Shown here in pieces: positions 5,528 through 21,445 of a stretch of 64,000 nt of DNA. The notes under the pieces are model-generated. The model made no database searches. It saw only the letters and a program-made list of their open reading frames with translations, and was not told the origin of the DNA. Location: positions 2,881,659-2,945,658 of the forward strand of contig CP091278.1 in NCBI GenBank assembly GCA_021650895.1, written 5' to 3'. Every line of letters begins with the position of its first letter. Position 1 is the stretch's first letter. Origin of the DNA: Candidatus Jettenia sp. GTDB taxonomy: Bacteria > Planctomycetota > Brocadiia > Brocadiales > Brocadiaceae. The position numbers were made by a program, and so were the translations under genes.

Positions 5528-8500
5528 TTGTTAAAATCGATTAAGTACAAATTAATACTGATCTTTTTATTGTGTTCATTTATGCCATTATTATTGCTGC
5601 GTTTTATGGCATTTCCCAAGGCACAGAAAGATTTGGAAGAGGCTTTAATAAGAAACCTGGAAGGGGTGAAACAAAAGCAGGCAGAAATTTTAAAAATGTG
5701 GTTTCGTGAGCGAAGACACGATGCAAAGATCATCAGCAGGAACATTTCTGCCATGCTAGGAAAGAATAGTAACGATAAGGGGGATGATTTCCGGAAACTC
5801 TACGATTATATGGAGATGTTGAGAGCAGAGTATGGATACAAAGGCATATCTATTACCTTGCGGGATGGAATCATACTCGCAGCTACGGAAAAGGAATGGG
5901 TTGGTTCCAATATTGTAAGTTATGATTATTGCAGAGAAGCCCTGAACGGAACTGTTTTTATATCCAGGATTCAACTTTTTGCTCAGCCGGGAAGTAAGAA
6001 CAAGGAGAGTAATAGTGGCGTCCCAACGATATTTATCTCTGCTCCGCTTGTAGATTCCAATAGCGTTACCATAGGAGCGGTCATTCTCCGGATGGATACA
6101 GCATCTCTCAGTGACATCATGAGAAGTGCAGAATTGGGAAAAACAGGGGAAACTTTTCTTATCAACAGAGAAGGATACATGCTGACAGAATCAAGATTTG
6201 CAGATGAGTTAAAAAAGACAGATCTGATTCAGCGAAGAACTTCATTGGAGTTAAGAATAGCGAATCCCCATACAGGGATGCTTACCGATGGAGCTCAGAA
6301 ATGTCTGAGTTGTAACGACGGATACGATGCAGAGGGTTATATAAATTACGATGGTAAGAAGGTCTTGGGCGCGTGGTGCTGGATTCCGGAATATGATTGT
6401 GGCTTACTTGCGCAAATTGATATTCATGAAGGATACGGAGCGGCTTATAATTTAAAGAAATTTGTTCTTTCAACCCTTTTGGTATTAGCGCTTCCCCTGA
6501 TACTGATTTCATTCTACTTTGGCAAAAGGATTTCAGCCCCTATTTTCAATATAACAGAAGTAACGAAAAAGATTGCGAGTGGCGATCTGGGACATCGGGT
6601 AAAAACCAGCAGCAAAAAAGATGAGATTAATGAACTGGCAAAGGCATTTAATGCGATGGCAGGTTCGCTTGAAGAAAAAACGATAAAATTAAGGAATTAC
6701 ACAACTGATCTCGAAAATACCGTAAAAGAGAGAACCCTTGAACTTCAGGAGACAACAAACTTTTTGAATAGTATCCTGGCGGGCTCTACGGAATATTCGA
6801 TTATTGCTGAAGATTTGCAGGGTAATATTCTTGCATTCAATGAAGGGGCGAGTCTTATTTATGGTTATAAGCCGGAGGAAATGATTGGGATAGCCAATGT
6901 AAGAATCCTTCACACGGATGAGGATGTGAAATCGGGAAAAGTAGACTCTATCTTAGAGGCAGCACGCAAAACGGGCAGATATGAAGGAGAAGTGATGAGA
7001 AAGAGAAAGAATGGCGATGTCTTTCCCGTTCATGTAACTTTTACCTTACGGCGTGATGAGATGGGGCATCCTATCGGATTTGTCGTAATATCGAAGGATA
7101 TTACGAAAGAAAAACTGGTGGCGCTGGAAAAGGAGATTATCAATAACATCAATAAGACGATTGCTTCTGGTTTACATATTAAAGGAATTTATACAAACGT
7201 TTATCATGAGCTAAAACGTATCATTGATTTTACCTGGTTAGGGGTGACGTGTTCTAACGATGGGGCAGAAGTTACGGAGGATTCTCATATTGTTCATGGT
7301 GTGCTATCTCCTGTAGACTGGTTAAACAGGAATCCATATCCGTTCGATACAACGGCGCAAGGTATTGCTGTGAAGACAGGTATGCCTGTTTTTGTTCCGG
7401 ATACGATTGAGAGTACGTATCTGATTGATCAGGAATTATCCCAAAAGGGTATCCGCTCTTACGTATGTGTTCCTTTAAAATCAAAGGGAATTACTATCGG
7501 AACCATTACGTTGGGAAGCAGAAAGAAAGGCGCTTTTACGGAAATGCACTTGAGTTTATTACATCAAATTACTCCGCAATTAGCTATTGCCATAGAAAAT
7601 GCCAGACTATTCATATTCATAAAGGAATCAGAGAAGAAATATAGAGATCTTGTGGAAAATGCACCGGAAATGATCCATGAGATTGGTCCCGAAGGGAAAT
7701 TTATTAATGTAAACAAAACAGAATTAAACAAATTAGGATACTCCCTTCAGGAAATGATGCAGATGACGCTTGAGGATATTGTCCCAAATGAACAGAAAGA
7801 AGAAATAAAAAGATATATGAAACGGATGGTTGAAACCGGAAGTGGTGAATTAGAGACGGTGTTTTTAACGAAAATGGGAAAAGAAATTAACGTCGAGATT
7901 AATGGGACAGGTCTTTATAATAACAAGACGAAAGAATATATTTGCACACGGGCGTTTGTACGGGATATTACCGAAAGAAAAAATATGGAGGAACAGGTGC
8001 GCCGGTCAGAAAAACTTGCCTCAATGGGCGAACTGGCTGCAGCAATTGCGCATGAGATTCGGAATCCGCTGGGTGCGATATGCAATTCTGTAGGAATTTT
8101 GGATGCCCACTTAAGAGTGACAGGTCAGGATAAGGATCTCCTGGAGATGATTGTGGGGCAATCAGAGAGACTGGACAGGATTATCAGTGATTTTTTAACC
8201 TTTGCCCATCCCCGGGAGCCTTCCTTTTCCCTGCAAAATATTCGGGAAGTAATTAAGAATACTATTTTTCTGTTAGAGCAGGATAGCCGATATACAGATC
8301 AGGTAGAAATAAAGGAGATTTATGAGAGCGTATTACCGAAAGTTTACCTTGATACCGATCTGATTCATCAGGTATTTTGGAATTTATTGATCAATTCCTT
8401 AGATGCTATGCCACAAGGCGGGCAGATCAGGATAATGGTGAGAAAAACAACCTTATTTTTGCGGGATGCAGTGGAAATTATCATATCAGATACGGGAGGA

Positions 8501-8728
8501 GGCATACCATCTCATGAATTGGATAAAATATTTGAGCCTTTCTATACTACAAAATCGGAAGGAACAGGGTTGGGTCTTTCTGTCGTTCAACGTATTATTG
8601 ATGATCATGGCGGAACGATAGATGTGAAAAGTAAAGAAGGCAAGGGGACGACCTTTTCTATTAAGCTGCCTGTTGGCCCTATGGGGAACGGAAAAGAGAA
8701 AATTAAAAACAATCTTTTAATGGGATGA
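5528..8728 (+). CDS. Membrane sensor histidine kinase (Cache-HAMP-PAS-GAF-PAS-HisKA-HATPase)
   Basis: A 1066-residue kinase starting at a TTG. Order: TM helix (about 7-28), extracytoplasmic double-Cache-like domain (about 35-310), TM helix (about 313-333), HAMP (about 335-390), PAS (about 410-525), GAF (about 535-690), PAS (about 695-810), HisKA with phosphoacceptor H842 in AAAIAHEIRNPLGAI, and HATPase with N box (FWNLLINSLDAM), G1 box (ISDTGGGIP) and G2 box (GTGLGLSVV). The sensor domain holds four cysteines (C259, C262, C284, C291); only the first is kept in the paralogue at 15829. It ends 9 bases before an NtrC-type regulator, its likely partner. The ligand is unknown. Confidence 0.93.
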   Translation: MLKSIKYKLILIFLLCSFMPLLLLRFMAFPKAQKDLEEALIRNLEGVKQKQAEILKMWFRERRHDAKIISRNISAMLGKNSNDKGDDFRKLYDYMEMLRAEYGYKGISITLRDGIILAATEKEWVGSNIVSYDYCREALNGTVFISRIQLFAQPGSKNKESNSGVPTIFISAPLVDSNSVTIGAVILRMDTASLSDIMRSAELGKTGETFLINREGYMLTESRFADELKKTDLIQRRTSLELRIANPHTGMLTDGAQKCLSCNDGYDAEGYINYDGKKVLGAWCWIPEYDCGLLAQIDIHEGYGAAYNLKKFVLSTLLVLALPLILISFYFGKRISAPIFNITEVTKKIASGDLGHRVKTSSKKDEINELAKAFNAMAGSLEEKTIKLRNYTTDLENTVKERTLELQETTNFLNSILAGSTEYSIIAEDLQGNILAFNEGASLIYGYKPEEMIGIANVRILHTDEDVKSGKVDSILEAARKTGRYEGEVMRKRKNGDVFPVHVTFTLRRDEMGHPIGFVVISKDITKEKLVALEKEIINNINKTIASGLHIKGIYTNVYHELKRIIDFTWLGVTCSNDGAEVTEDSHIVHGVLSPVDWLNRNPYPFDTTAQGIAVKTGMPVFVPDTIESTYLIDQELSQKGIRSYVCVPLKSKGITIGTITLGSRKKGAFTEMHLSLLHQITPQLAIAIENARLFIFIKESEKKYRDLVENAPEMIHEIGPEGKFINVNKTELNKLGYSLQEMMQMTLEDIVPNEQKEEIKRYMKRMVETGSGELETVFLTKMGKEINVEINGTGLYNNKTKEYICTRAFVRDITERKNMEEQVRRSEKLASMGELAAAIAHEIRNPLGAICNSVGILDAHLRVTGQDKDLLEMIVGQSERLDRIISDFLTFAHPREPSFSLQNIREVIKNTIFLLEQDSRYTDQVEIKEIYESVLPKVYLDTDLIHQVFWNLLINSLDAMPQGGQIRIMVRKTTLFLRDAVEIIISDTGGGIPSHELDKIFEPFYTTKSEGTGLGLSVVQRIIDDHGGTIDVKSKEGKGTTFSIKLPVGPMGNGKEKIKNNLLMG

Positions 8729-8737
8729 AAAAGAATT

Positions 8738-10144
8738 ATGGAAGATGGTAAAATCCTTGTAGTTGAAGATCAGGATGCCATGAGAGAATCCCTTATAATA
8801 GCGTTTAGAGACGAGGGGTATCAGGTTGAAGGCGCTTCGAGCGGAGAAGAGGCTATTCAAAAATTATGTGGCCATACTGTATACGACCTTGTTATCACCG
8901 ACCTGAAGATGAAAAAAGTAGATGGCCTGGAAGTGCTCAAGACGGTGAAGACTGCAAATCCTTCCACAGAAGTAGTGCTTATTACTGCCTATGGCACCAT
9001 TAGTACTGCGGTGCAGGCGATTCGGGATGGTGCATACGATTATGTGACGAAACCTTTTCGTCATCAGGAGATCCTCAGGGTTGCAAAAAAGGCAATTGAG
9101 AAAAAAAGCCTGAAGGACAGGGTGAGGTACCTTGAAGGGGAAATCCGGGAGAAATATAAATTTGAGGGTATTGTAGGTAATTCCCCTGCAATGCTGGAGG
9201 TGTTAAAAATAACCTCACATATATGCCGTACCGAGAGTACGGTTCTGGTGACCGGCGAGAGCGGGACGGGAAAAGAGTTGATTGCAAGGGCAATTCATTA
9301 CAATAGTTCACGAAAGGAAGGTCCATTTGTGGTGATAAATTGTGGTGCATTACCTGAGAACCTGCAGGAAAGTGAGTTATTTGGACACGTGAAGGGTGCT
9401 TTTACCGGGGCTATTCGGGATAAAATAGGATTGTTTCAGCAAGCCCAAAAAGGGACGATTCTGCTGGATGAGGTTGGCGAGACTTCCCCTTCTACCCAGG
9501 TTAAGCTCTTGCGGTTCCTTCAGGATGGGGAGATTCGTCTTGTTGGCGGAAATAAATCGATGTATGTGGATGCCCGGATCATTGCGGCTACAAATGAGAA
9601 TTTGGAGCAAGCTGTCGAATCGGGAAGGTTTAGAAAAGATCTGTTTTATAGAATTAATGTGATACGTATTCATCTTCCACCTCTGAGGGAACGAAGGGAA
9701 GATATTCCTCTTCTGGTGGAGTATTTTTTAGAAAAAATTTTAGAAAAACAGAAAAAGGGAAAAAGGGAGTTATCGAAAGAGGCGATGTATGCATTAGCGA
9801 ATTATGATTGGCCTGGTAATATCAGGGAACTTCAGAATATGCTGGAAAGGGCAGTTGCATTATCGAAAGATGAAACAATACATATCCATGAGCTTTTACT
9901 ACCACAAAAAGAATTCGATAGTATTGCCATAAACCCTCTGGAGAATGAAAAGAGAAAGTCATTCATTGTAACAACCCTTGCAGAGCAAGAAAAAAATGCT
10001 ATTATTGAAGCCCTGAATAAATATAGCGGTAATCAAACAAAAGTTGCTCAGATACTTGGGATATCCACAACGACGCTCTGGAGGAAGATTAAAAAGTACC
10101 GGATTAAATCACAACACGAGATATCTGATACTATTGAAAAATAA
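8738..10144 (+). CDS. Sigma54-dependent response regulator, NtrC family
   Basis: A 468-residue activator: receiver domain (about 5-120, phosphoacceptor D55 in VITDLKMKKVDG), AAA+ domain (about 145-385) with Walker A GESGTGKE (173-180) and the sigma54-contacting GAFTGA loop (220-225), and a C-terminal Fis-type helix-turn-helix (about 420-460, NQTKVAQILGISTTTLWRKI). Once phosphorylated, such proteins bind upstream sites and drive open-complex formation by sigma54 polymerase. It follows the histidine kinase by 9 bases, forming a complete two-component pair. I found no convincing -24/-12 promoter nearby to name a target. Its receiver resembles the output-less receiver at 18731. Confidence 0.95.
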   Translation: MEDGKILVVEDQDAMRESLIIAFRDEGYQVEGASSGEEAIQKLCGHTVYDLVITDLKMKKVDGLEVLKTVKTANPSTEVVLITAYGTISTAVQAIRDGAYDYVTKPFRHQEILRVAKKAIEKKSLKDRVRYLEGEIREKYKFEGIVGNSPAMLEVLKITSHICRTESTVLVTGESGTGKELIARAIHYNSSRKEGPFVVINCGALPENLQESELFGHVKGAFTGAIRDKIGLFQQAQKGTILLDEVGETSPSTQVKLLRFLQDGEIRLVGGNKSMYVDARIIAATNENLEQAVESGRFRKDLFYRINVIRIHLPPLRERREDIPLLVEYFLEKILEKQKKGKRELSKEAMYALANYDWPGNIRELQNMLERAVALSKDETIHIHELLLPQKEFDSIAINPLENEKRKSFIVTTLAEQEKNAIIEALNKYSGNQTKVAQILGISTTTLWRKIKKYRIKSQHEISDTIEK

Positions 10145-11418: not shown

Positions 11419-14077
11419 CTACAATGAGTTATTTCTATTCTGCTGTTGTGGACGCTTGCGTGATGATCGAATGTTACCTGAGTATGGCTGTTTCAGGGCA
11501 AGGCCTGAAGCACCGTAAGGAGTAAGGGAACGTGCATACTTGAGATCGGTATTTGACCGGTCGTAATAACTGATATGCACAAAACCATTACTGTCTACCT
11601 TTATTGAGGTATACGCGCCTACCCGCCCTGCGCTATCCACCGTTATCGTAGTCCATGAACCAGTGGTATTATGGGTATATTTGAGATCCCCATTTGTATA
11701 ATCATGGTAACTTATGTGAACGTTATCAGAGGCATCAATTGCCAGAGAGGTGTATGAACCAACTAATCCAACCGTATCTATTGATTCCCTTACCCATGAA
11801 CCATTCACCTTATGAGCATAGCTAAGCCCTGTAGAACTTGCGTTATAGTAGCTGATGTGTACAGCATCAGACGAATCTACTGCGAGTGAAGAATACTTCC
11901 CTACCCATGCATTCCCACCATGCACAATCTCCGTTGACCATGAACCGTTCATATACAGGGCATACTTGAGATCGCCATTGGTATGGTCATAATAACTGAT
12001 ATGCACATTATCCATAGAATCGACTGCCAGAGAGGTGTACATGCCTACACTCCGATACTATCTACCGTCGTGATTGTCCATGAGGCAGGATCAAGAGGGG
12101 TGCTGGTAGAGGCACATTTAAGATCCTGATTGGTAGCATCATAATAACTGATATATACCTTATCCGCTGAATCGAACGCCAGAGAGGTATACAATCCCAC
12201 ATTGCCCGTGCTGTCTATGGTAGAGACGGACCATGCAGCTTTGCCATCAGCGGTAGCAAATTTCAGATCACCATTGGTTTGGTCATAGTAACTGATATAC
12301 TTTCGAAAGATCGATTTCTTTATTGCCAGAGAGGGGTACCTTCCTACATCTCCTATCCTATCCGGTGTACTCCTTGGCCATGATCCATTAGAAATATTAT
12401 ACACAATTTGAAGGTTTCTATTGCTCGCATTATAATAGCTGATACGTGCCCATTCCGATCTGTCTAAAGCCAGAGAGGTAAATGTCCCTTCAGCATTATT
12501 GCCTCCCATGCTGGCAATATACCAGGTACCCTCAGAGAGGTTACTATCAAAACGGGATATGAAGACATCATACGAACCATTGTGAGAGGTATCATAAGCG
12601 CCGGCTGTGGTAGGGAGGTCTGTCGTTGCATCAACGGTATAACCCATCACATAGACGTTTCCCTCCGTATCTGTAGCAAGGGAATTACCATAATCACTAT
12701 AAGAGCCACCCAGGAAGGTGGATGCCTGGAGAGCGTCAGGCTACTATTGAACTTTGATACAAAGACATCAGCCCCGCCATTGTGAGAGGTATCATAGGCG
12801 CCTGCCGTGGTAGGGAGGTATGTCTCTGTATCATAGGTATGACCCGTCACATAGACGTTTCCCTCCGTATCTGTGGCAAGGGAATAACCCTGATCACTAC
12901 CAGAGCCACCCAAGAAGGTGGACGCCAGGAGACTGGTCAGACCACTATTGAACTTTGATACAAAGACATCAAGCGAGCCATTGTGAGAGGTATCATAAGC
13001 GCCTGCCTTAGTAGGGAGGTCGGTTGTTGTATCATAGGTATAACCCGTTACATAGATGTTTCCCTTTGTGTCTGTAGTAATTGATTGACCATAATCACTA
13101 TGAGAGCCGCCGAGAAATGTGGATGCCAGGAGGGGGTCGATAATGAGGTCCTTTGATGTATCGTATGATGCTACCGTAAAGCCATAAACAAGGTGAGAGG
13201 TTTTTTCTCCTGTATGCTGACTCCTGGCTTCTGTCTTCTGAACGCTATATTCCACTGCCACATCAACCCTCTTCCCCTCAATCTCCTGAAAGGCTACCGG
13301 TTTGGTAAATGTCACCTTCCCTAACTCTGTCTCTACCTCAAGCTCTCCGTGGTCGTTAATGTATAATCCCCCTTGATCCCCCTTTAGAAAAGGGGGAAAA
13401 TTCCCTCTATCCCCCTTTGGTAAAGAAGAAACAGCGAACCCCTCCTTTTGTAAAGAGGGAATAGCAAAGCCCCCCTTTTCCAAAGGAGGGTTGGGGGGAT
13501 TAGGAAGTTTCACCCCACTCAACCTTACCTGAATCTGCCTCGGGTCAGCCCCTGGTTTCACACAAAAGAGCTTCTCCACATTATCCCCATATGCCTTCAG
13601 CCTTAGCTCAATCCCCTCGTATACCTCTCCGAGGTTTACCTCTCCATAGGTTGCAATGCCACTCCTCCACTTCGATGGATCATTGCCCTTAAAATAACTC
13701 ACCTGTGTCTCTGCCTCATCCTCTCCCTTTATCTCTGCAACCTTCCCGTTAACCAGCTCTTCTTTTAATATCAGTCCTTTTTCACATGACGTATTCCGGA
13801 GCATGGTATCGATAAAAGCCAGCACAGGTGATGCGGGATGCACGGTACTCTGATAGTAAGGTAACCGGCAGTGTGCATAGTGCCTGATGTGCCTTGCACG
13901 ATACAGGTCGTTTGGTGGTAATCCCTCTGGTCCCTTACTATCATTATCTTCTTTATTCCCGGAGTGAGGCAATGAATAGATAATCTCGCCTTCCTTTGTT
14001 ACAAACACCGTCCCGCTAAAGGTATTCGCATAAAAGCCTACCCTTGTATCTGCCTGACATTCATTGGCGATAAAGTC
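11419..14077 (-). pseudogene. Decayed SBBP-repeat beta-propeller surface protein
   Basis: Three minus-strand fragments make one protein of about 880 residues. The first part has the GFYANTFSGTVFVTKEGE start typical of SBBP proteins and repeats such as LLASTFLGGS...GNIYVTGYT. The rest consists of repeats like YTSLAVDSMDNVHISYYD and NGDLKYA. Three lesions are visible: an in-frame TAA at 14078-14080 just before NECQADTRVGFYA (normally preceded by a signal peptide and more sequence), a one-base loss near 12733 (the other frame resumes with LQASTFLGGSYSDYG), and another near 12052 (TAG after TVDSIGV, resuming SVGMYTSLAVDS). If the indels are assembly errors it could be a real but 5'-truncated gene. 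Such proteins are usually exported. Confidence 0.75.
13365..13502. repeat. Palindromic CCCCCTTT/AAAGGGGG repeats inserted in frame in the SBBP gene
   Basis: A 138-bp block built of the same CCCCCTTGATCCCCCTTTAG and AAAGGAGGGTTGGGG units found in the intergenic gaps. Read on the minus strand it gives 46 codons in frame, including NPPNPPLEKGGF, KEGFAVSSLPKGDRG and NFPPFLKGDQGG. Family-like sequence resumes on both sides (VRLSGVKLP before, LYINDHGELEVE after). It therefore looks like an intergenic repeat that invaded a coding region without breaking the frame. Confidence 0.7.
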
Positions 14078-14563: not shown

Positions 14564-15073
14564 TTCATCCAACCGAGTTTACAGGGTTCTTCCGGCAGTT
14601 AAAAACGTTACAGTATTTTTGTTCAAAAATGAGGAAACAACTCAAAGATTAATGAGATACAAATTTTTGCTTTTTATAATTTCATCCTGAAATTACCATT
14701 GCAGAATGGAATGTTTTCTATGAATAGATAGGCTATAGCTTATGCATTCATACAGAAATATTATTAATTTAATAAGCTGTTGTTTTAATACCACTTATAT
14801 AAAAATATACGTGGTATTTTTTTTACTTATGGGAAGTTGGTATATTTTTCGTTACTAGGAAGAAAACGAGGAATTAGTGAAAAATGGTATAGGTATCGTT
14901 AAGTCTATAAATATTGCAGAAAATATACAATGTTTCAGAGTAAGCTGGCGATTTGCTCTCAAGTATTTTTAGAATAAAATGCTAACCTTTTATGGTAAAT
15001 ATTTCTCCTGAGTTGTATCTATAAACTTGTGAGTGTATTACCAGAAAAGTGCAGAACAAAAAGGTATTGGCGG
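14564..15073. other. AT-rich gap before the HPP gene
   Basis: No gene is visible. Apart from one strong hairpin with a T tract (14787-14824) it is AT-rich and unstructured to the eye. It presumably holds the promoter of the 15-19 kb gene group. I looked for a sigma54 -24/-12 pair, because of the NtrC-type regulator upstream, and found none I would defend. Confidence 0.6.
14787..14824 (+). terminator. Rho-independent-type terminator hairpin
   Basis: AATACCACTTATAT pairs with ATATACGTGGTATT across an AAAA loop (14 pairs, one mismatch) and runs into eight T residues. It lies about 220 bases after the nearest upstream stop codon, so it may end that transcript or an unseen small RNA. Confidence 0.6.
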
Positions 15074-15757
15074 ATGTTCAAAAGGAAAAGAACTACTGAA
15101 GTTAAAAAAGTTATAGATGTAAAATTCGAGGTAAAACAGCATTCTGAAGAAGATAAAAAAAATTATTTTGTGCGTATAATGGACTTTTTAAAAGAACCTT
15201 TAAAAAGGGAGAGAGAAAATATGCCGATGCTAGATGGAATAAATAGAATAAGTACCTATATAAAAAAATTACCCAGGGCGCCACAACCTGATCTCACTTC
15301 AAGAGAGGTGTTGCTTTCTCTCTGGGGGGCGCTTTTGGGGATAGGGATAACGGCGTTGCTGGCATTTACCTGGAAGTGTCCGATGCTATTAGGGTCTTTT
15401 GGATCTACCGCGCCATTGATTTATTGTGCGTACAAATCGCCTCTGGCGCAACCAAGGAATGTCGTGCTGGGGCATTTCCTCGGCGCAAGTATCGGTGTGG
15501 TTGTCAACGACTTCTTTGGCGTGACGTGGTGGTCGATTGCGCTTACCGTCGCCCTTGCTATTATTCTTATGTTTACGACGTATTCGATACATCCCCCGGC
15601 AGGCGCAACGGCATATGTAGCTGTTCAAACGGGGGGATTGGGCGTAGGATATTGGTTTATCCTGAACCCCACTATGTTGGGAATATTTATCATGCTGACA
15701 GTAGCAGTGATCTTTAATAAGATGAGCAAGAGAGATTATCCGACACATTGGTATTAA
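15074..15757 (+). CDS. HPP family membrane protein, possible nitrite/anion transporter
   Basis: A 227-residue protein: a charged N-terminal region of about 75 residues, then four to five hydrophobic helices and the signature HPPAGATA (HPP at residues 173-175). Cyanobacterial and chloroplast HPP proteins have been shown to transport nitrite; in other bacteria the role is open. The helices include VLLSLWGALLGIGITALLAF, NVVLGHFLGASIGVVV and TMLGIFIMLTVAVIF. I chose ATG 15074 (AAGG nine bases upstream) over an in-frame GTG at 15029. It begins a run of five plus-strand genes ending in a FocA channel, which makes an anion-uptake role plausible. Confidence 0.82.
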   Translation: MFKRKRTTEVKKVIDVKFEVKQHSEEDKKNYFVRIMDFLKEPLKRERENMPMLDGINRISTYIKKLPRAPQPDLTSREVLLSLWGALLGIGITALLAFTWKCPMLLGSFGSTAPLIYCAYKSPLAQPRNVVLGHFLGASIGVVVNDFFGVTWWSIALTVALAIILMFTTYSIHPPAGATAYVAVQTGGLGVGYWFILNPTMLGIFIMLTVAVIFNKMSKRDYPTHWY

Positions 15758-15828
15758 AAGGAGGCATCAATTGGATGTGATGTTCGTGAACCTGAGAGTA
15801 CAAAATTCGTTAAATTACGGAGAAAATT

Positions 15829-18117
15829 ATGTATATATCGATTAAAACCCGTCTTATTCTTTTGCTCATTGTGTTTACGTTACTCCCATTTGTTTTGCTA
15901 AGAATTATTGCCTACCCACGGATACAGGCAGATCTTCAGGAGGTGCTGATACGTGACCTTGATGGTATGGGACATAAACAGGCAGAATTAGTGACCAATT
16001 GGATGCATGAGAGAATGATGAATGCCCGTGCGATAGCAAATAATCCTTTGATGGCTAAAAGTGTAAAGATTACGAAAGAGGATAAGGATTATCCTGATAT
16101 TATTCAATACCTTGAAGTGATAAAAAATGAATATGGGTATAAGGGTATATTGATAAGCAACGATCAGGGCATAGTAAAAATCGCCACAATAGAAGAAGGG
16201 TTGGGAAATGATATCTCACAGATGGATTATTTCAAAGAGGCGGTACAAGGAAAGACCTATGTATCGAGTGTAGTGCCATCTGAAATTCCCCTTATGAATG
16301 AGGATGGAGAAAAAGAACTCGGCCTGCCTAACATGCTTGTCTCATCACCACTGAAAGACAGGGAGGGAAATGTCATTGGCGTTGTTGCGCTAAGAATTGA
16401 TGCATTGAAACTGAGCGAATTGGTGTTAAGCCTCAATTTGGGAAAGACGGAAGAGACCTACCTTATTAATAAAGACGGATACATGATTACCGAATCAAGA
16501 TTTGCAAAGCACCTCAAAGAAATGGGGCTGGTAAAAAAGCGATGCGCCCTGGAATTGAAACTGATTAACCAGGAAACAGGGAAATTAACCGAAGGTGCAC
16601 AACAGTGTATCTCAGGCAATAACGGCTTTGATGCACAGGGCTATAAGGATTACGGTGGGGTAACCGTACTGGGGGTATGGCGCTGGTTACCGGAGTTTCA
16701 TTGGGGCGTTATCACGGAAATCGATAGAGATGAAGGGTACGGGCCGGCCTATAATCTGAATTACATCGTAAGCTCTGTGCTCTTAATCCTTGCATTTCCT
16801 TTTGTTATGGTAGCATACCTTGTGGGGAAAAAACTTTCAGTGCCGATTCTTAAATTAACCGAAGTGACCAGGAAGATGGCATCAGGAGATTTAGCGCAAC
16901 GGGTAGACATCCAGAGAGAAGATGAGCTGGGTGAATTGGCAAGCTCATTTAATGTTATGGCAAAGTCCCTCGATGAGAAGACAAAAGAGATCATCATTTC
17001 CGAGAAGAGATACCGGGAGATCTTCAATTCGATTAAAGAAGGGGTGTATCAGTCAGATCCGGGAGCAGAAGGAGTCTTTACGTTTATCAACAAGGCAGGG
17101 GCAGAGATTCTGGGATACAGCACTCCGGAAGAGGTAATCGGAACGAAGGTAAAGAATATCTATGTCGATCCGGAAGACCGAAGGCGCCTCTGCGATAAAC
17201 TGGAGAAGGATGGGGTCTGGAGAGAGTTTGTATCGCTGTGTAGGAGGAAAAGCGGCGAGAGTTTCTATGCAGAGCGTACGAGCAGTATGCTGAGGGATGA
17301 GAAAGGCAATCCGGCAGCTATTTATGGGGTATTCCGGGATATTTCCGAGAGGAAGAAGGCAGAGATGGAGGTCATAGAGTCAGAGAAGAGATACCGGTTA
17401 TTATTTGATTCACTGAAGGAAGGGGTATATCAATCCGAGCCGGAGGTGGATGGGGTATTTACCTGGATTAATCAGGCAGGGGCAGAGATCCTTGGCTATA
17501 AGTCTCCGGAAGAAGTGATTGGACTTAAGGTAAAGGATGTTTATGTAAATCCGGATGACCGGAAAAAGGTGGTAGAAAAGCTCTCGAAGGAAGGGGTTTG
17601 GAAGGGATTTGCCTCGTTTTGCAAGAGGAAAAATGGTGAACGGTTCCATATGGAGAGGACATCGAGTGTCGTGATGGATGAGAAGGGAAATCCAATCCGG
17701 ATAGACGGGATATTCAGGGATATAACAGAACGGAAGAAGCTGGAGCAGGAGTTACAGGAGTCGGAGAGGCATCATCGTCAGCTGCTGAATTCCTTAAAGG
17801 AAGGGATCTATCAGTGTGAACCTACAGAAGACGGGGTATTTACCTGGATCAATCAGGCAGGAGCAGAGATCTTGGGCTATAGTTCACCTGAAGAGGTTAT
17901 CGGGACACGGGTGAAGGATGTATATGTGAATCCTGAGGACCGAAAGGAATTGGTCGAGAAGTTAGAAAAGGAAGGTGTATGGAGAGACTTTACCTCATAT
18001 TGTAAGAGAAAAAATGGTGAACGGTTTATTTCTGAAAGGACTTGTAATCTGGTGCGTGATGAGAACGGTAAGCCGATAAGGATTGAAGGTGTATTTAGGG
18101 ATATAACGGAAAGATAA
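15829..18117 (+). CDS. Kinase-less membrane sensor: Cache-HAMP-PAS-PAS-PAS
   Basis: A 762-residue protein with TM helix (about 7-27), extracytoplasmic double-Cache-like domain (about 35-305), TM helix (about 308-328), HAMP (about 330-382) and three tandem PAS/PAC units of exactly 127 residues starting at 392, 519 and 646. The units are very alike; each contains GVFT(F/W)IN(K/Q)AGAEILGY. The protein ends at DITER, the usual end of a PAC motif, so no HisKA, HATPase, GGDEF, EAL or methyl-accepting domain exists. The N-terminal half is paralogous to the kinase at 5528 (compare LLRIIAYPRIQADLQEVLIRDL with LLRFMAFPKAQKDLEEALIRNL). It must signal through partners, perhaps the two genes that follow. 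No kinase remnant follows the TAA. Confidence 0.9.
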   Translation: MYISIKTRLILLLIVFTLLPFVLLRIIAYPRIQADLQEVLIRDLDGMGHKQAELVTNWMHERMMNARAIANNPLMAKSVKITKEDKDYPDIIQYLEVIKNEYGYKGILISNDQGIVKIATIEEGLGNDISQMDYFKEAVQGKTYVSSVVPSEIPLMNEDGEKELGLPNMLVSSPLKDREGNVIGVVALRIDALKLSELVLSLNLGKTEETYLINKDGYMITESRFAKHLKEMGLVKKRCALELKLINQETGKLTEGAQQCISGNNGFDAQGYKDYGGVTVLGVWRWLPEFHWGVITEIDRDEGYGPAYNLNYIVSSVLLILAFPFVMVAYLVGKKLSVPILKLTEVTRKMASGDLAQRVDIQREDELGELASSFNVMAKSLDEKTKEIIISEKRYREIFNSIKEGVYQSDPGAEGVFTFINKAGAEILGYSTPEEVIGTKVKNIYVDPEDRRRLCDKLEKDGVWREFVSLCRRKSGESFYAERTSSMLRDEKGNPAAIYGVFRDISERKKAEMEVIESEKRYRLLFDSLKEGVYQSEPEVDGVFTWINQAGAEILGYKSPEEVIGLKVKDVYVNPDDRKKVVEKLSKEGVWKGFASFCKRKNGERFHMERTSSVVMDEKGNPIRIDGIFRDITERKKLEQELQESERHHRQLLNSLKEGIYQCEPTEDGVFTWINQAGAEILGYSSPEEVIGTRVKDVYVNPEDRKELVEKLEKEGVWRDFTSYCKRKNGERFISERTCNLVRDENGKPIRIEGVFRDITER

Positions 18118-18166
18118 AGCGTTTATTTAAAAGAATTAAAATACACTGAACGAGGAGTAGAAAATT

Positions 18167-18700
18167 ATGGGAAATGAGACGGTAAAGGGTTTATCAGTGA
18201 ATGCTAAGACCCTTATTTTAATATTGCTGTTTGTAAATATCGGTTTTGCATCGAAGATGCTTAATAAGTATTACAAGATGAAAGAGTCGGGATACATCAG
18301 AGAAAAGACGTTTCAGGAACAGCTCGAGACAAGGGTTATGAAGGCTTTCGGTTCTATGGAAGATCTCAATAAGATGGTTAACGATATCACAAGACGAAAA
18401 GAAGAGGCAGAGAAGCTTGCAGAGTCTTTTAAAGAACAAGATGAGCAGTTGAAACTCACCAATAAAGAGTTGGAAAGTGCAAAGGTCAAGCTGGAAGAGG
18501 AGAAGGCACGGTTACAAAAAGAAATATGGGCGGTTGAGGACTCGCTGTCTTCTGCAAAGAAGGTACTCAGTAGTAAGGATTTAACAATCCAGGAGCTTAT
18601 GAATAAATTGGAAACAATTGAAAGGGAAAATGCAGCGGTGAAGAAGCAGCTCGAAGAACAATCAAAAGCGCCCGAAGCGTGGAATCTTCCCCATCAGTAA
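18167..18700 (+). CDS. Membrane-anchored coiled-coil protein of unknown function
   Basis: 177 residues. A single N-terminal hydrophobic segment (TLILILLFVNIGFASKML, about residues 14-31) is followed by about 140 residues of charged heptad-like sequence rich in E, K, L and Q (for example AKVKLEEEKARLQKEIWAVE). The pattern predicts one inner-membrane anchor and a long cytoplasmic or periplasmic coiled coil. No enzymatic motif is present and I recognise no family. It lies between the kinase-less sensor (49 bases upstream) and the stand-alone receiver (30 bases downstream), so it could be a scaffold or connector between them; this is inference from position only. The ATG has a GAGGAG ribosome site. 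Confidence 0.75.
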   Translation: MGNETVKGLSVNAKTLILILLFVNIGFASKMLNKYYKMKESGYIREKTFQEQLETRVMKAFGSMEDLNKMVNDITRRKEEAEKLAESFKEQDEQLKLTNKELESAKVKLEEEKARLQKEIWAVEDSLSSAKKVLSSKDLTIQELMNKLETIERENAAVKKQLEEQSKAPEAWNLPHQ

Positions 18701-18730
18701 ACATGATACTACTATTTATGAAAGATTTTT

Positions 18731-19141
18731 ATGCCAAGGGTTCTTATTATAGAAGAGCAGGAGAAGATCCGAAGATTATTAGTGAGTATGTTTAAGCAAG
18801 AGGGGTTTGAGACATGCCATGGGATCGTATGGGAAAAAGTGAAAGAACTACCGAAGAAAAATATTTACGATCTTATCATCATCGATTTGTATGTTAAGCC
18901 GATTGATGGTTATGAGATAATGAAATCGATAAAGTTCTTCCATCCTGCAGCAGAGGTTATAGCGATAATCCCTCAAAATGGATATGATACCGGCCAGATG
19001 ATTAGCTGTGGTATCTATGACTATGTTTTGAAACCTTTTCGACAAAAAGACATACTCGATAAAGGAAAGAAGGCTTTAGAGAAGAAACAGTTGATCGACA
19101 AAGTACGTAGTTTAGAGCAAATTATGGATATGGATACATAG
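18731..19141 (+). CDS. Stand-alone receiver domain protein, NtrC-type receiver without output
   Basis: 136 residues, essentially one receiver domain plus a short helix. The acidic pair E8/E9, phosphoacceptor D52 (LIIIDLYVKPIDGYE) and conserved lysine K101 (YVLKPF) are present. The conserved Thr/Ser of strand 4 is replaced by Ile (I80 in EVIAIIPQNGYD). Its end, KKALEKKQLIDKVRSLEQIM, matches the linker of the full NtrC-type regulator at 8738 (KKAIEKKSLKDRVRYLEGEI) and stops where the AAA+ domain would begin. It thus looks derived from such a regulator by loss of the AAA+ and DNA-binding domains. It may work by protein contact. The altered Thr position may change switching. Confidence 0.88.
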   Translation: MPRVLIIEEQEKIRRLLVSMFKQEGFETCHGIVWEKVKELPKKNIYDLIIIDLYVKPIDGYEIMKSIKFFHPAAEVIAIIPQNGYDTGQMISCGIYDYVLKPFRQKDILDKGKKALEKKQLIDKVRSLEQIMDMDT

Positions 19142-19359
19142 AACCTCTTGTTGTGATGCTTGAAAAGGAGTTTGGGAAAAGAGAATATGTTCTTCTGTTG
19201 ATAAAGAAAGGGGGTGTGTTAAATAACTATTGAAACAGAAATTTTTGCAAATCATATTCACACAGCATTTGAAGTACTAGCGCTTTGTAATGAAAAGTAA
19301 AGGTGGTTAAATAGTGTAAAGTTGTTTTTATAGTTGTATATTTTAGAGGAGAACAAGTA

Positions 19360-20250
19360 ATGTTATATACTGGAAACGTAGATGCAATTGCAGCGGTATC
19401 TCTCAAGAAAGCCACTGCAATGAAACACAGCTTAACAGGTTTCTTGACTCTCTCTGTGATAGCTGGTTTTTACATTGGATTTGGTGTTATTCTTGCATTT
19501 ATTGCTGCCGCACCTGTTGCAGCAATAAATCCCGGCATTGGTAAGATAGTTGCCGGTGCAACTTTTGGTATTGCGTTGTCGTTAGTAATTTTTGCTGGAG
19601 CCGAGTTGTTTACAGGATATAACCTCTTGATACTTAAAGGAACACTGAGGGGTACCGTAACTCTTTCAGATTCTATGCTGGGCTGGTTTTGGACGTACTT
19701 AGGAAATCTGGGTGGCTCGTTGCTTTTTGCACTTATGATTATTGTTGCTGGCGTCTTTGCTCCTGATCCCTGGAAAGCATTTATATTAAAGGCTGCTACC
19801 TATAAGTGCAATGCGCCATGGTGGGAATTATTCTTCAGGGGTCTCTTCTGTAACTGGCTCGTTTGTTTGGCTATATGGTCAACGTTTAGATGCACCAGCG
19901 ATTCTGGTAAATTGATTATGATATGGTGGTGCTTGTTTGCATTTGTTACGACAGGTATGGAACACAGTGTAGCAAACATGACGATATTGGCAATCGCAAA
20001 TCTCTTGCCTCACGGGCCTGAGATCTCATGGGGTAAGATGTTTGGGTGGAATCTTGTTGCTGTTACCTTAGGTAATATTGTGGGTGGTTCCTTCTTTGTT
20101 ACATTTCTGTATTGGTTTGCTACTGCTATGGATGAAAGAGGCGCTAAGAGGTTAGAGTTCTTAAAGGCTTCTACTGGGACTTCTGAATCTCTAAAAGCAC
20201 CAAAAATGGAAGAGGAGATTAAAGACGTTAGGGTAAAGATGAAGCAGTAA
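19360..20250 (+). CDS. Formate/nitrite transporter family channel (FocA/NirC-like)
   Basis: A 296-residue inner-membrane channel of the pentameric FNT family, which conducts formate, nitrite or hydrosulfide. Six hydrophobic segments are visible. Family motifs are AGAELFTGYN (omega-loop region), GLFCNWLVCLAIW, and TGMEHSVANM, which carries the central histidine expected to protonate the substrate. A hydrophilic tail of about 45 residues follows the last helix (DERGAKRLEF onward), longer than in E. coli FocA. In an anammox context nitrite is the expected substrate, but sequence alone does not separate nitrite from formate. It follows the HPP and sensor genes after a 218-base gap that may hold its own promoter, and a strong terminator ends it. 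Confidence 0.93.
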   Translation: MLYTGNVDAIAAVSLKKATAMKHSLTGFLTLSVIAGFYIGFGVILAFIAAAPVAAINPGIGKIVAGATFGIALSLVIFAGAELFTGYNLLILKGTLRGTVTLSDSMLGWFWTYLGNLGGSLLFALMIIVAGVFAPDPWKAFILKAATYKCNAPWWELFFRGLFCNWLVCLAIWSTFRCTSDSGKLIMIWWCLFAFVTTGMEHSVANMTILAIANLLPHGPEISWGKMFGWNLVAVTLGNIVGGSFFVTFLYWFATAMDERGAKRLEFLKASTGTSESLKAPKMEEEIKDVRVKMKQ

Positions 20251-20306
20251 GTCAGCATAACAGCGTTTAAACCTAGATAATAAGTAGAAAAGGCTGATTG
20301 TAGTGG

Positions 20307-20340
20307 AAAGGGCCAGTAAAATTTACTGGCCCTTTTTTTT
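20307..20340 (+). terminator. Strong rho-independent terminator after the FocA-like gene
   Basis: AAAGGGCCAGTAAA (20307-20320) is perfectly complementary to TTTACTGGCCCTTT (20322-20335) and runs into a T tract ending at 20340. It separates the transporter from the carbonic anhydrase gene starting at 20381. Confidence 0.85.
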
Positions 20341-20380
20341 CTGATTGTGAAGTAAATTTTTGATTATTTGAGGATTTGGT

Positions 20381-21445
20381 ATGGGAAATAAAGGTTTACA
20401 GAAAAGGTTTTTTTACATCGGATATGTCTTTTTCATAATAATTCTTATTTGTTATGTTTCATTCAATCATTCTATAACTGTTGCAAATGCTGAGATAAAC
20501 CCAAAGATAATTGAGGATCGTGACCGTAGCAATGATTGTAATACCCTGGTAATTTCCTGCGTTGACTTTCGGTTTGTCTCATTCATTCGGGTCTTTCTCA
20601 CGGAAAACCTTAAAATAAAAGACGATTACGACCACATTGCAATACCAGGTTCTGTAACAGATATTATAAGGCCGGAAACTCAAAAAATTACCTTCGATAA
20701 AATTGATATACTATTAAATTTACATCATGTAAATCACCTTGTTCTTATTGAGCATAAAGACTGCGGTGCATATGGCGGTTCAAAATATTTCGAGTCGGAT
20801 GAGAAAGAAACGGAGATGCTATCAAATGGCCTCAGACGGGTGCGGGATATTCTTAACGAGAAATATCCGAATTTGAGGGTAGACCTTTTCCTTGCATCAC
20901 TGAAGAATGTAGGCAATGAAAAATTTTATTATATGGAACGTATCTACGGTGCTGCATTCAATCATTCTATAATCATGGCAAATATAGAGATAGGCCAAAC
21001 GGCGGTTGAGAATTGTGACCATAGCAATAATTGTAATACCCTGGTAATTTCCTGCGTTGACTTTCGGTTTGTCTCATTCATTCGGGTCTTTCTCACGGAA
21101 AACCTTAAAATAAAAGACGATTACGACCACATTGCAATACCAGGCTCTGTAATGGATATTATAAAGCCGGAAACTCAAAAAATTACCTCCGACAAAATTG
21201 ATATACTATTAAATTTACATCATGTAAATCACCTTATTCTTATTGGGCATAAAGACTGCGGTGCATATGGCGGTTCAAAATATTTCGAGTCGGATGAGAA
21301 AGAAACGGAGATACTATCGAATGACCTATGTCGGGTGCGGGATATTTTTAACGAGAAATATCCGAATTTGAGGGTAGACCTTTTCCTTGCATCGCTGAAG
21401 AATGTAGGCAATGAAAAATTTTATTACATAGACCGTATCAAATAA
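20381..21445 (+). CDS. Tandemly duplicated, probably exported beta-carbonic anhydrase
   Basis: 354 residues: a hydrophobic signal or anchor (about 9-37, KRFFYIGYVFFIIILICYV) and two beta-carbonic-anhydrase-like halves of 165 residues that are almost identical. Each half has the zinc and catalytic motifs CVDFR (CxDxR) and HKDCGAYGG (HxxC). The repeat period is exactly 495 bp; the DNA copies (from about 20538 and 21033) differ at few sites, so the duplication is recent or kept uniform by conversion. The duplicated unit includes the end of the signal region (SFNHSITVANAE against AFNHSIIMANIE). Beta-carbonic anhydrases act as dimers of such domains, so one chain could form a pseudo-dimer. It interconverts CO2 and bicarbonate, probably outside the cytosol. 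Confidence 0.85.
   Translation: MGNKGLQKRFFYIGYVFFIIILICYVSFNHSITVANAEINPKIIEDRDRSNDCNTLVISCVDFRFVSFIRVFLTENLKIKDDYDHIAIPGSVTDIIRPETQKITFDKIDILLNLHHVNHLVLIEHKDCGAYGGSKYFESDEKETEMLSNGLRRVRDILNEKYPNLRVDLFLASLKNVGNEKFYYMERIYGAAFNHSIIMANIEIGQTAVENCDHSNNCNTLVISCVDFRFVSFIRVFLTENLKIKDDYDHIAIPGSVMDIIKPETQKITSDKIDILLNLHHVNHLILIGHKDCGAYGGSKYFESDEKETEILSNDLCRVRDIFNEKYPNLRVDLFLASLKNVGNEKFYYIDRIK

Follow-up and report, generated by a model that had tools for sequence, protein, structure and literature searches.

Nitrite Transport in Anammox Bacteria

Anammox, to which a large part of the nitrogen lost from the oceans is attributed and which is used in wastewater treatment, has nitrite as both its electron acceptor and its main substrate. 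In Kuenenia stuttgartiensis, a "nitrite transporter gene cluster" (kuste3050-3055, or KSMBR1_1070-1075) has been described (PMC6423088, PMC7438415). It is the most highly expressed nitrite transporter of this organism, and the operon is induced under nitrite limitation (PMC7438415). When NO is supplied in place of nitrite, kuste3050-3055 drops 3.0-36.5-fold, and within the cluster it is the FNT, a protein of 300 aa (PMC3482989), that shows the steepest fall without nitrite (PMC6423088). The Kuenenia papers name only the transporters, and the other genes are listed as hypothetical or unknown (PMC6423088, PMC7438415). In Scalindua, a NirC-like FNT (scal00416) has been found near an HAO (scal00421) (PMC3655542).

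The orthologous locus was analyzed in a stretch of 64,000 nucleotides (hereafter, the window) from a genome that consists of a single contig of 3.82 Mb. As the hydrazine synthase alpha gene is found in this genome and the locus has its closest named relatives in Jettenia ecosi and Brocadia species, the host is a Jettenia-like anammox bacterium of the Brocadiaceae. The order of HPP, dCache, PAS, coiled coil and FNT is the same in Kuenenia as in the window, but in Kuenenia HPP is divided, separate genes encode dCache and PAS, and no receiver is present. Mapping of kuste3050-3055 onto the window genes by order and length (the 300 aa FNT and the two-part HPP) identifies kuste3052 as the dCache protein, kuste3053 as the PAS protein, kuste3054 as the coiled coil and kuste3055 as the FNT. 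The label-free protein values of kuste3052, kuste3054 and kuste3055 are 1.16, 0.34 and 0.47 million, respectively, intensities that do not equal molar amounts (PMC6423088). The expression data published on the Kuenenia orthologue thus back the role in nitrite uptake that an earlier note on this DNA had proposed (PMC7438415, PMC6423088).

A Conserved Unit of Transporters and Signaling Proteins

The six plus-strand open reading frames that the earlier note had listed are all present and belong to the stated families by Pfam and ORF checks. Five of these, encoding HPP, a dCache-HAMP-PAS3 sensor, a membrane coiled coil, a receiver and FNT, form one transcription unit throughout the family, in which, counting from HPP, consecutive genes are 71, 49, 30 and 218 bases apart. 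A conserved intrinsic terminator hairpin (14787..14822, plus strand), supported by alignment and by folding (z of −4.55 in the window and −5.2 in L043), precedes HPP, and a strong intrinsic terminator (20305..20337, plus strand; fold z −5.0) ends the unit 3' of FNT.

The sixth gene (20381..21445, plus strand) encodes an exported carbonic anhydrase in which Pro_CA_2 occurs in two tandem copies, each with its C-x-D-x-R ... H-x-x-C site. The halves are ~91% identical with both zinc sites kept, and so appear to be the product of a recent internal duplication. This gene is found only in the three genomes of the window's genus and is missing from Brocadia; one g7 genome has a relative with just one copy. 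Its membership in the unit is ruled out by the terminator at 20305-20337 and by the lack of conservation. Being a Jettenia-type add-on outside the unit, it leaves the bicarbonate function that had been suggested for the system without support.

Wherever a contig of a Brocadiaceae genome spans the locus (~31 genomes), HPP, sensor, coiled coil and FNT lie side by side. The receiver is found in 26 of these genomes; three Kuenenia genomes lack it, as do G014 and G024. Conserved gene adjacency in relatives, which had been named as the main test of the proposal, is therefore strongly positive and far beyond chance. Second copies of the four-gene core, without receiver, occur in G006 and G011. The core is also kept in the sister family, where Scalindua has the order FNT, HPP, sensor and coiled coil. 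In most loci of sufficient length, the next genes encode a diheme cytochrome c and a multiheme protein resembling HAO; the published order of scal00416 ... scal00421 (PMC3655542) fits this arrangement. In a further family, f3, hydrazine synthase is present and HPP was not found.

The Two Transporters

The first gene (15074..15757, plus strand) encodes an HPP-family membrane protein and putative nitrite transporter (PF04982, 156 bits), in which the TM_HPP domain is accompanied by an HPPAGATAY motif that is invariant across the alignment. A sequence search found no solved structure for HPP, and its predicted model (pLDDT 56) was too poor for a fold search. The DNA of the membrane part (window 15300-15830) is 95-97% identical to that of Brocadia pituitae (L061) and 64-74% identical to that of a genome of the same genus (G016, L040), and the flanks show the opposite pattern, being closer to G016 than to B. 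pituitae. This mosaic reflects a recent allele swap between genera through recombination within HPP. In a K. stuttgartiensis-like Kuenenia genome (G020), the HPP of the cluster is in pieces, with an in-frame stop (L077:8997-9603); a different, intact HPP is present elsewhere in that genome. HPP is thus dispensable in G020, which counts against the explanation that we favor below.

The FNT channel (19360..20250, plus strand) gives a full-length match to PF01226 (238 bits versus a cut-off of 34.6). Its closest solved relatives are the C. difficile hydrosulfide channel HSC (3tdo, the nearest) and NirC (4fc4), both nearer than FocA. The score against the NCBIfam NirC equivalog lies below its cut-off (185 versus 293 bits), and the protein is best described as HSC/NirC-like. 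It ends in a C-terminal tail (EEIKDVRVKMK in the window copy) that is kept as EEIKDVKVKMK from Kuenenia to Jettenia and is lost in G014. Other FNTs encoded by the same genomes lack the tail, with the exception of a second tailed FNT in the window genome. This second FNT lies with a second coiled coil (L204:5039-9226; genome 753-757 kb) near a gene that, from reading its sequence without a family search, we take to be nxrA, for the nitrite oxidoreductase alpha subunit. The FNT of J. ecosi (L041:10253-11146) is of the same second allele type as this FNT2; its sensor and coiled coil are nonetheless 95-96% identical to those of the window.

HPP and FNT allele types match in 20/21 loci (Fisher p 1.3e-4), an association that is suggestive only, as there are just ~3 changes of each on the tree. 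The leader preceding FNT (window 19141-19360) has conserved sequence blocks. One is AAAGGGGGTGTG; another, present before the ribosome site in most relatives, is TGTTGT..ACAACA, a possible stem. These features suggest that FNT is under separate control.

Sensor, Coiled Coil and Receiver

The second gene (15829..18117, plus strand) encodes a membrane sensor of 762 aa with two TM segments that, by Pfam, has a dCache_1 domain, a HAMP domain and three PAS domains, and in which HisKA, HATPase, GGDEF and MCP domains are absent; it is, therefore, not a histidine kinase. The protein stops straight after the third PAS (...GVFRDITER), and the orthologues examined share this RDITER end, including those of Kuenenia. 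The identical ends indicate that the truncation is an old, selected state and not a broken gene. The dCache domain has 60 invariant columns across 32 sequences, and its predicted model (pLDDT 79) yields a broad set of fold matches that includes DctB, PctA, McpH and KinD. It thus looks similar to receptors that recognize amino acids, purines and carboxylates, and its ligand need not be nitrite.

The coiled coil (18167..18700, plus strand; 177 aa) is anchored by one N-terminal TM, which together with the juxtamembrane segment is strongly conserved, and matches no Pfam family. It appears to be restricted to anammox bacteria, as none was found outside the Brocadiaceae among 246 genomes sampled from the phylum, a sample that includes four f3 genomes and leaves out the family of Scalindua (f4). 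In 7/11 Scalindua loci, a PAS domain and the coiled coil are joined in one protein, which supports contact between coiled coil and sensor. Coiled coil and tailed FNT were duplicated together, and their numbers are equal in 9/11 genomes in which both were counted. The co-duplication, together with the unique FNT tail, supports contact between coiled coil and channel. Both exceptions count against such a partnership: G004 has two tailed FNTs versus one detected coiled coil, and G018 has one sensor/coiled-coil pair without an adjoining FNT in the stretch examined.

The lone receiver (18731..19141, plus strand; PF00072) is degenerate. The window copy has kept the acceptor Asp and the Lys and has lost the switch Thr; among orthologues, the Asp is lost in 3/17 and the switch Thr in 16/17, and some also show erosion of the acidic pair. 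The equivalent sites are invariant in the NtrC-type regulators compared. The orthologues, therefore, lack the conserved Asp, Thr/Ser and Lys of an active response regulator, and since the receiver is both degenerate and optional, a phospho-relay through it is unlikely. Within the genome, it is most similar to the receivers of the adjacent NtrC-type regulator (41%) and of one other NtrC-type protein (40%), the third-best match reaching only 29%. Conservation is highest in the last helix, KKALEKKQLxDKVRxLE, which it has in common with the receiver-linker region of the regulator and where their similarity is 51%, compared with 31-35% elsewhere. This suggests that the receiver acts by dimer contact rather than phosphorylation. 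In trees, the lone receivers form one clade, the attachment of which to the adjacent regulators is poorly supported.

A Proposed Mechanism

The locus may represent the main nitrite-uptake operon of these bacteria, in which the kinase-less sensor and the coiled coil would be the membrane partner of the channel, a proposal that in our estimate has an even chance of being correct. HPP and the HSC/NirC-like FNT would carry nitrite across a cell membrane. The operon has a conserved promoter-like element of its own, and its transcription follows nitrite supply, with an upstream dCache histidine kinase/NtrC-type pair as the best candidate regulator. Sensor and coiled coil would together make up an accessory sensory unit, similar in abundance to the channel, that may bind an external ligand via dCache and an internal signal via PAS. 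The resulting change would be passed by contact from the coiled coil to the channel, the unique C-tail being the obvious docking site, and the outcome would be that nitrite flux is adjusted or the channel is placed. The lone receiver would have arisen from an NtrC-type receiver, joined the unit later and partly degenerated, probably serving as a decoy or adaptor by dimer contact and not by phosphotransfer.

Protein-protein control at the membrane by sensor and coiled coil is plausible given the fusion of coiled coil and PAS, co-duplication and co-abundance. A stronger version, in which the Brocadiaceae and the family of Scalindua share a kinase-independent complex of dCache/PAS sensor and coiled coil that directly gates or places the nitrite channel, is offered tentatively and is more doubtful than probable. 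If true, it would mean that a main energy substrate is controlled through protein contact and not phosphorylation.

The Upstream Kinase/Regulator Pair

The window does contain a two-component system. A sensor histidine kinase of 1066 aa with the architecture dCache-HAMP-PAS-GAF-PAS-HisKA-HATPase (5528..8728, plus strand) is followed by an NtrC/AtoC-type response regulator (8738..10144, plus strand) composed of REC, sigma54 activator (GAFTGA present) and HTH domains. The earlier interpretation is, therefore, supported in part. The absence of a kinase and an output domain stands for the five-gene unit and fails for the locus, as the inclusion of the carbonic anhydrase does, and its conserved adjacency and nitrite role are upheld. 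In the window, the pair is set apart from HPP by a C_GCAxxG protein and by minus-strand SBBP/BNR propeller ORFs in three frames (11419-14008), which are probably a decayed inserted gene.

The pair raises the possibility that sensor and coiled coil act as co-receptors for the upstream kinase, forming mixed arrays through HAMP/PAS helices that modulate phosphorylation of the NtrC-type regulator. This regulator would control the operon, and the lone receiver would pair with it as a decoy. We regard this as a real contender that is nevertheless probably wrong. It is favored by the position of the pair directly 5' of HPP in 22/25 informative loci, by the dCache-HAMP region common to sensor and kinase (~44% identity), and by the resemblance of the lone receiver, above all in its last helix, to the receiver of the adjacent regulator. 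However, the core is also found without an adjoining pair in Scalindua, in the second copies of G006 and G011, and in G018, G019 and G022 (two Kuenenia genomes are among the loci without the pair); the conserved terminator at 14787..14822 separates the pair from HPP; and the unrelated neighbors argG, hisB and hisC are likewise conserved beside the locus, which makes adjacency weak evidence.

Promoter elements bear on the same question. Just behind the first hairpin and 5' of HPP, alignment and pattern search identify a near-invariant promoter-like element, GTTGGTATATTTTTCGTTA (14836..14854, plus strand). The pattern GTTGGTATANNTTTCGT occurs before HPP in 18/20 Brocadiaceae genomes searched, with one further copy elsewhere in G015, and the reversed control pattern yields one match. 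The GTTGGTATA-N2-TTTCGTTA region is a candidate binding target of the NtrC-type regulator. Scalindua has a sigma-54-like promoter, TTGGTAT-N7-TTGC[TG], 5' of FNT, a −24/−12 pattern found at most FNT starts, and the Brocadiaceae element has the same TTGGTAT and spacing, so that the −24 half matches, as a co-receptor role would favor. Against this, the −12 position of the Brocadiaceae element is GT and not GC, and a search for a consensus sigma-54 promoter before HPP or FNT in the Brocadiaceae found none. The exact strict sigma-54 pattern has no match in the whole genome, and an Rfam search of the region gave nothing convincing.

Scaffolding and Other Substrates

Contact-based control of the channel must also be weighed against the notion that sensor and coiled coil have a structural or targeting role, keeping the transporters in place in either the cytoplasmic or the anammoxosome membrane without live signaling. 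Their protein levels, which are like those of the channel (PMC6423088), their restriction to anammox bacteria, the lack of a catalytic domain and the strongly conserved membrane segment of the coiled coil agree with such a role, but a pure scaffold would not need a dCache fold with so many invariant residues or three full PAS domains, and we consider it unlikely. That the operon instead serves formate, bicarbonate or hydrosulfide is highly improbable, since the promiscuity of FNT proteins, the hydrosulfide channel as nearest solved relative and the carbonic anhydrase behind the operon in the window's genus are outweighed by the response of the Kuenenia orthologue to nitrite supply (PMC7438415, PMC6423088), the HAO-like genes beside the Scalindua copies, the second FNT near the nxrA-like gene, and the position of the unconserved carbonic anhydrase behind a terminator.

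Comparison with Known Systems

With nitrite as the favored substrate and sensor and coiled coil as the favored partners of the channel, the locus names likely parts for nitrite sensing and uptake across the several membranes of anammox bacteria, parts that are conserved in two anammox families. Genes listed as "hypothetical" in the Kuenenia cluster become sensor and partner proteins whose roles can be tested. The Kuenenia cluster and its regulation are already known. The kinase-less sensor, the coiled coil, the degenerate receiver, the FNT tail and the two-family conservation were not found described in the open-licence literature searched.

HPP has the HPP motif and belongs to the TM_HPP family, as do the HPP proteins that carry nitrite in cyanobacteria and chloroplasts (Maeda 2014, as relayed in PMC7438415). 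Unlike those, it is paired with FNT and sensor genes, and its transport role is putative. Likewise, the top sequence matches of FNT in the NirC/HSC branch (4fc4, 3tdo) span the whole channel, compared with which FNT carries an extra conserved C-tail. A coupling of transporter and signaling protein is also known in anammox bacteria from Ks-Amt5, in which an ammonium transporter domain is fused to a histidine kinase (PMC5764959); unlike in Ks-Amt5, the sensor at this locus is a separate dCache protein without a kinase, and the channel looks complete.
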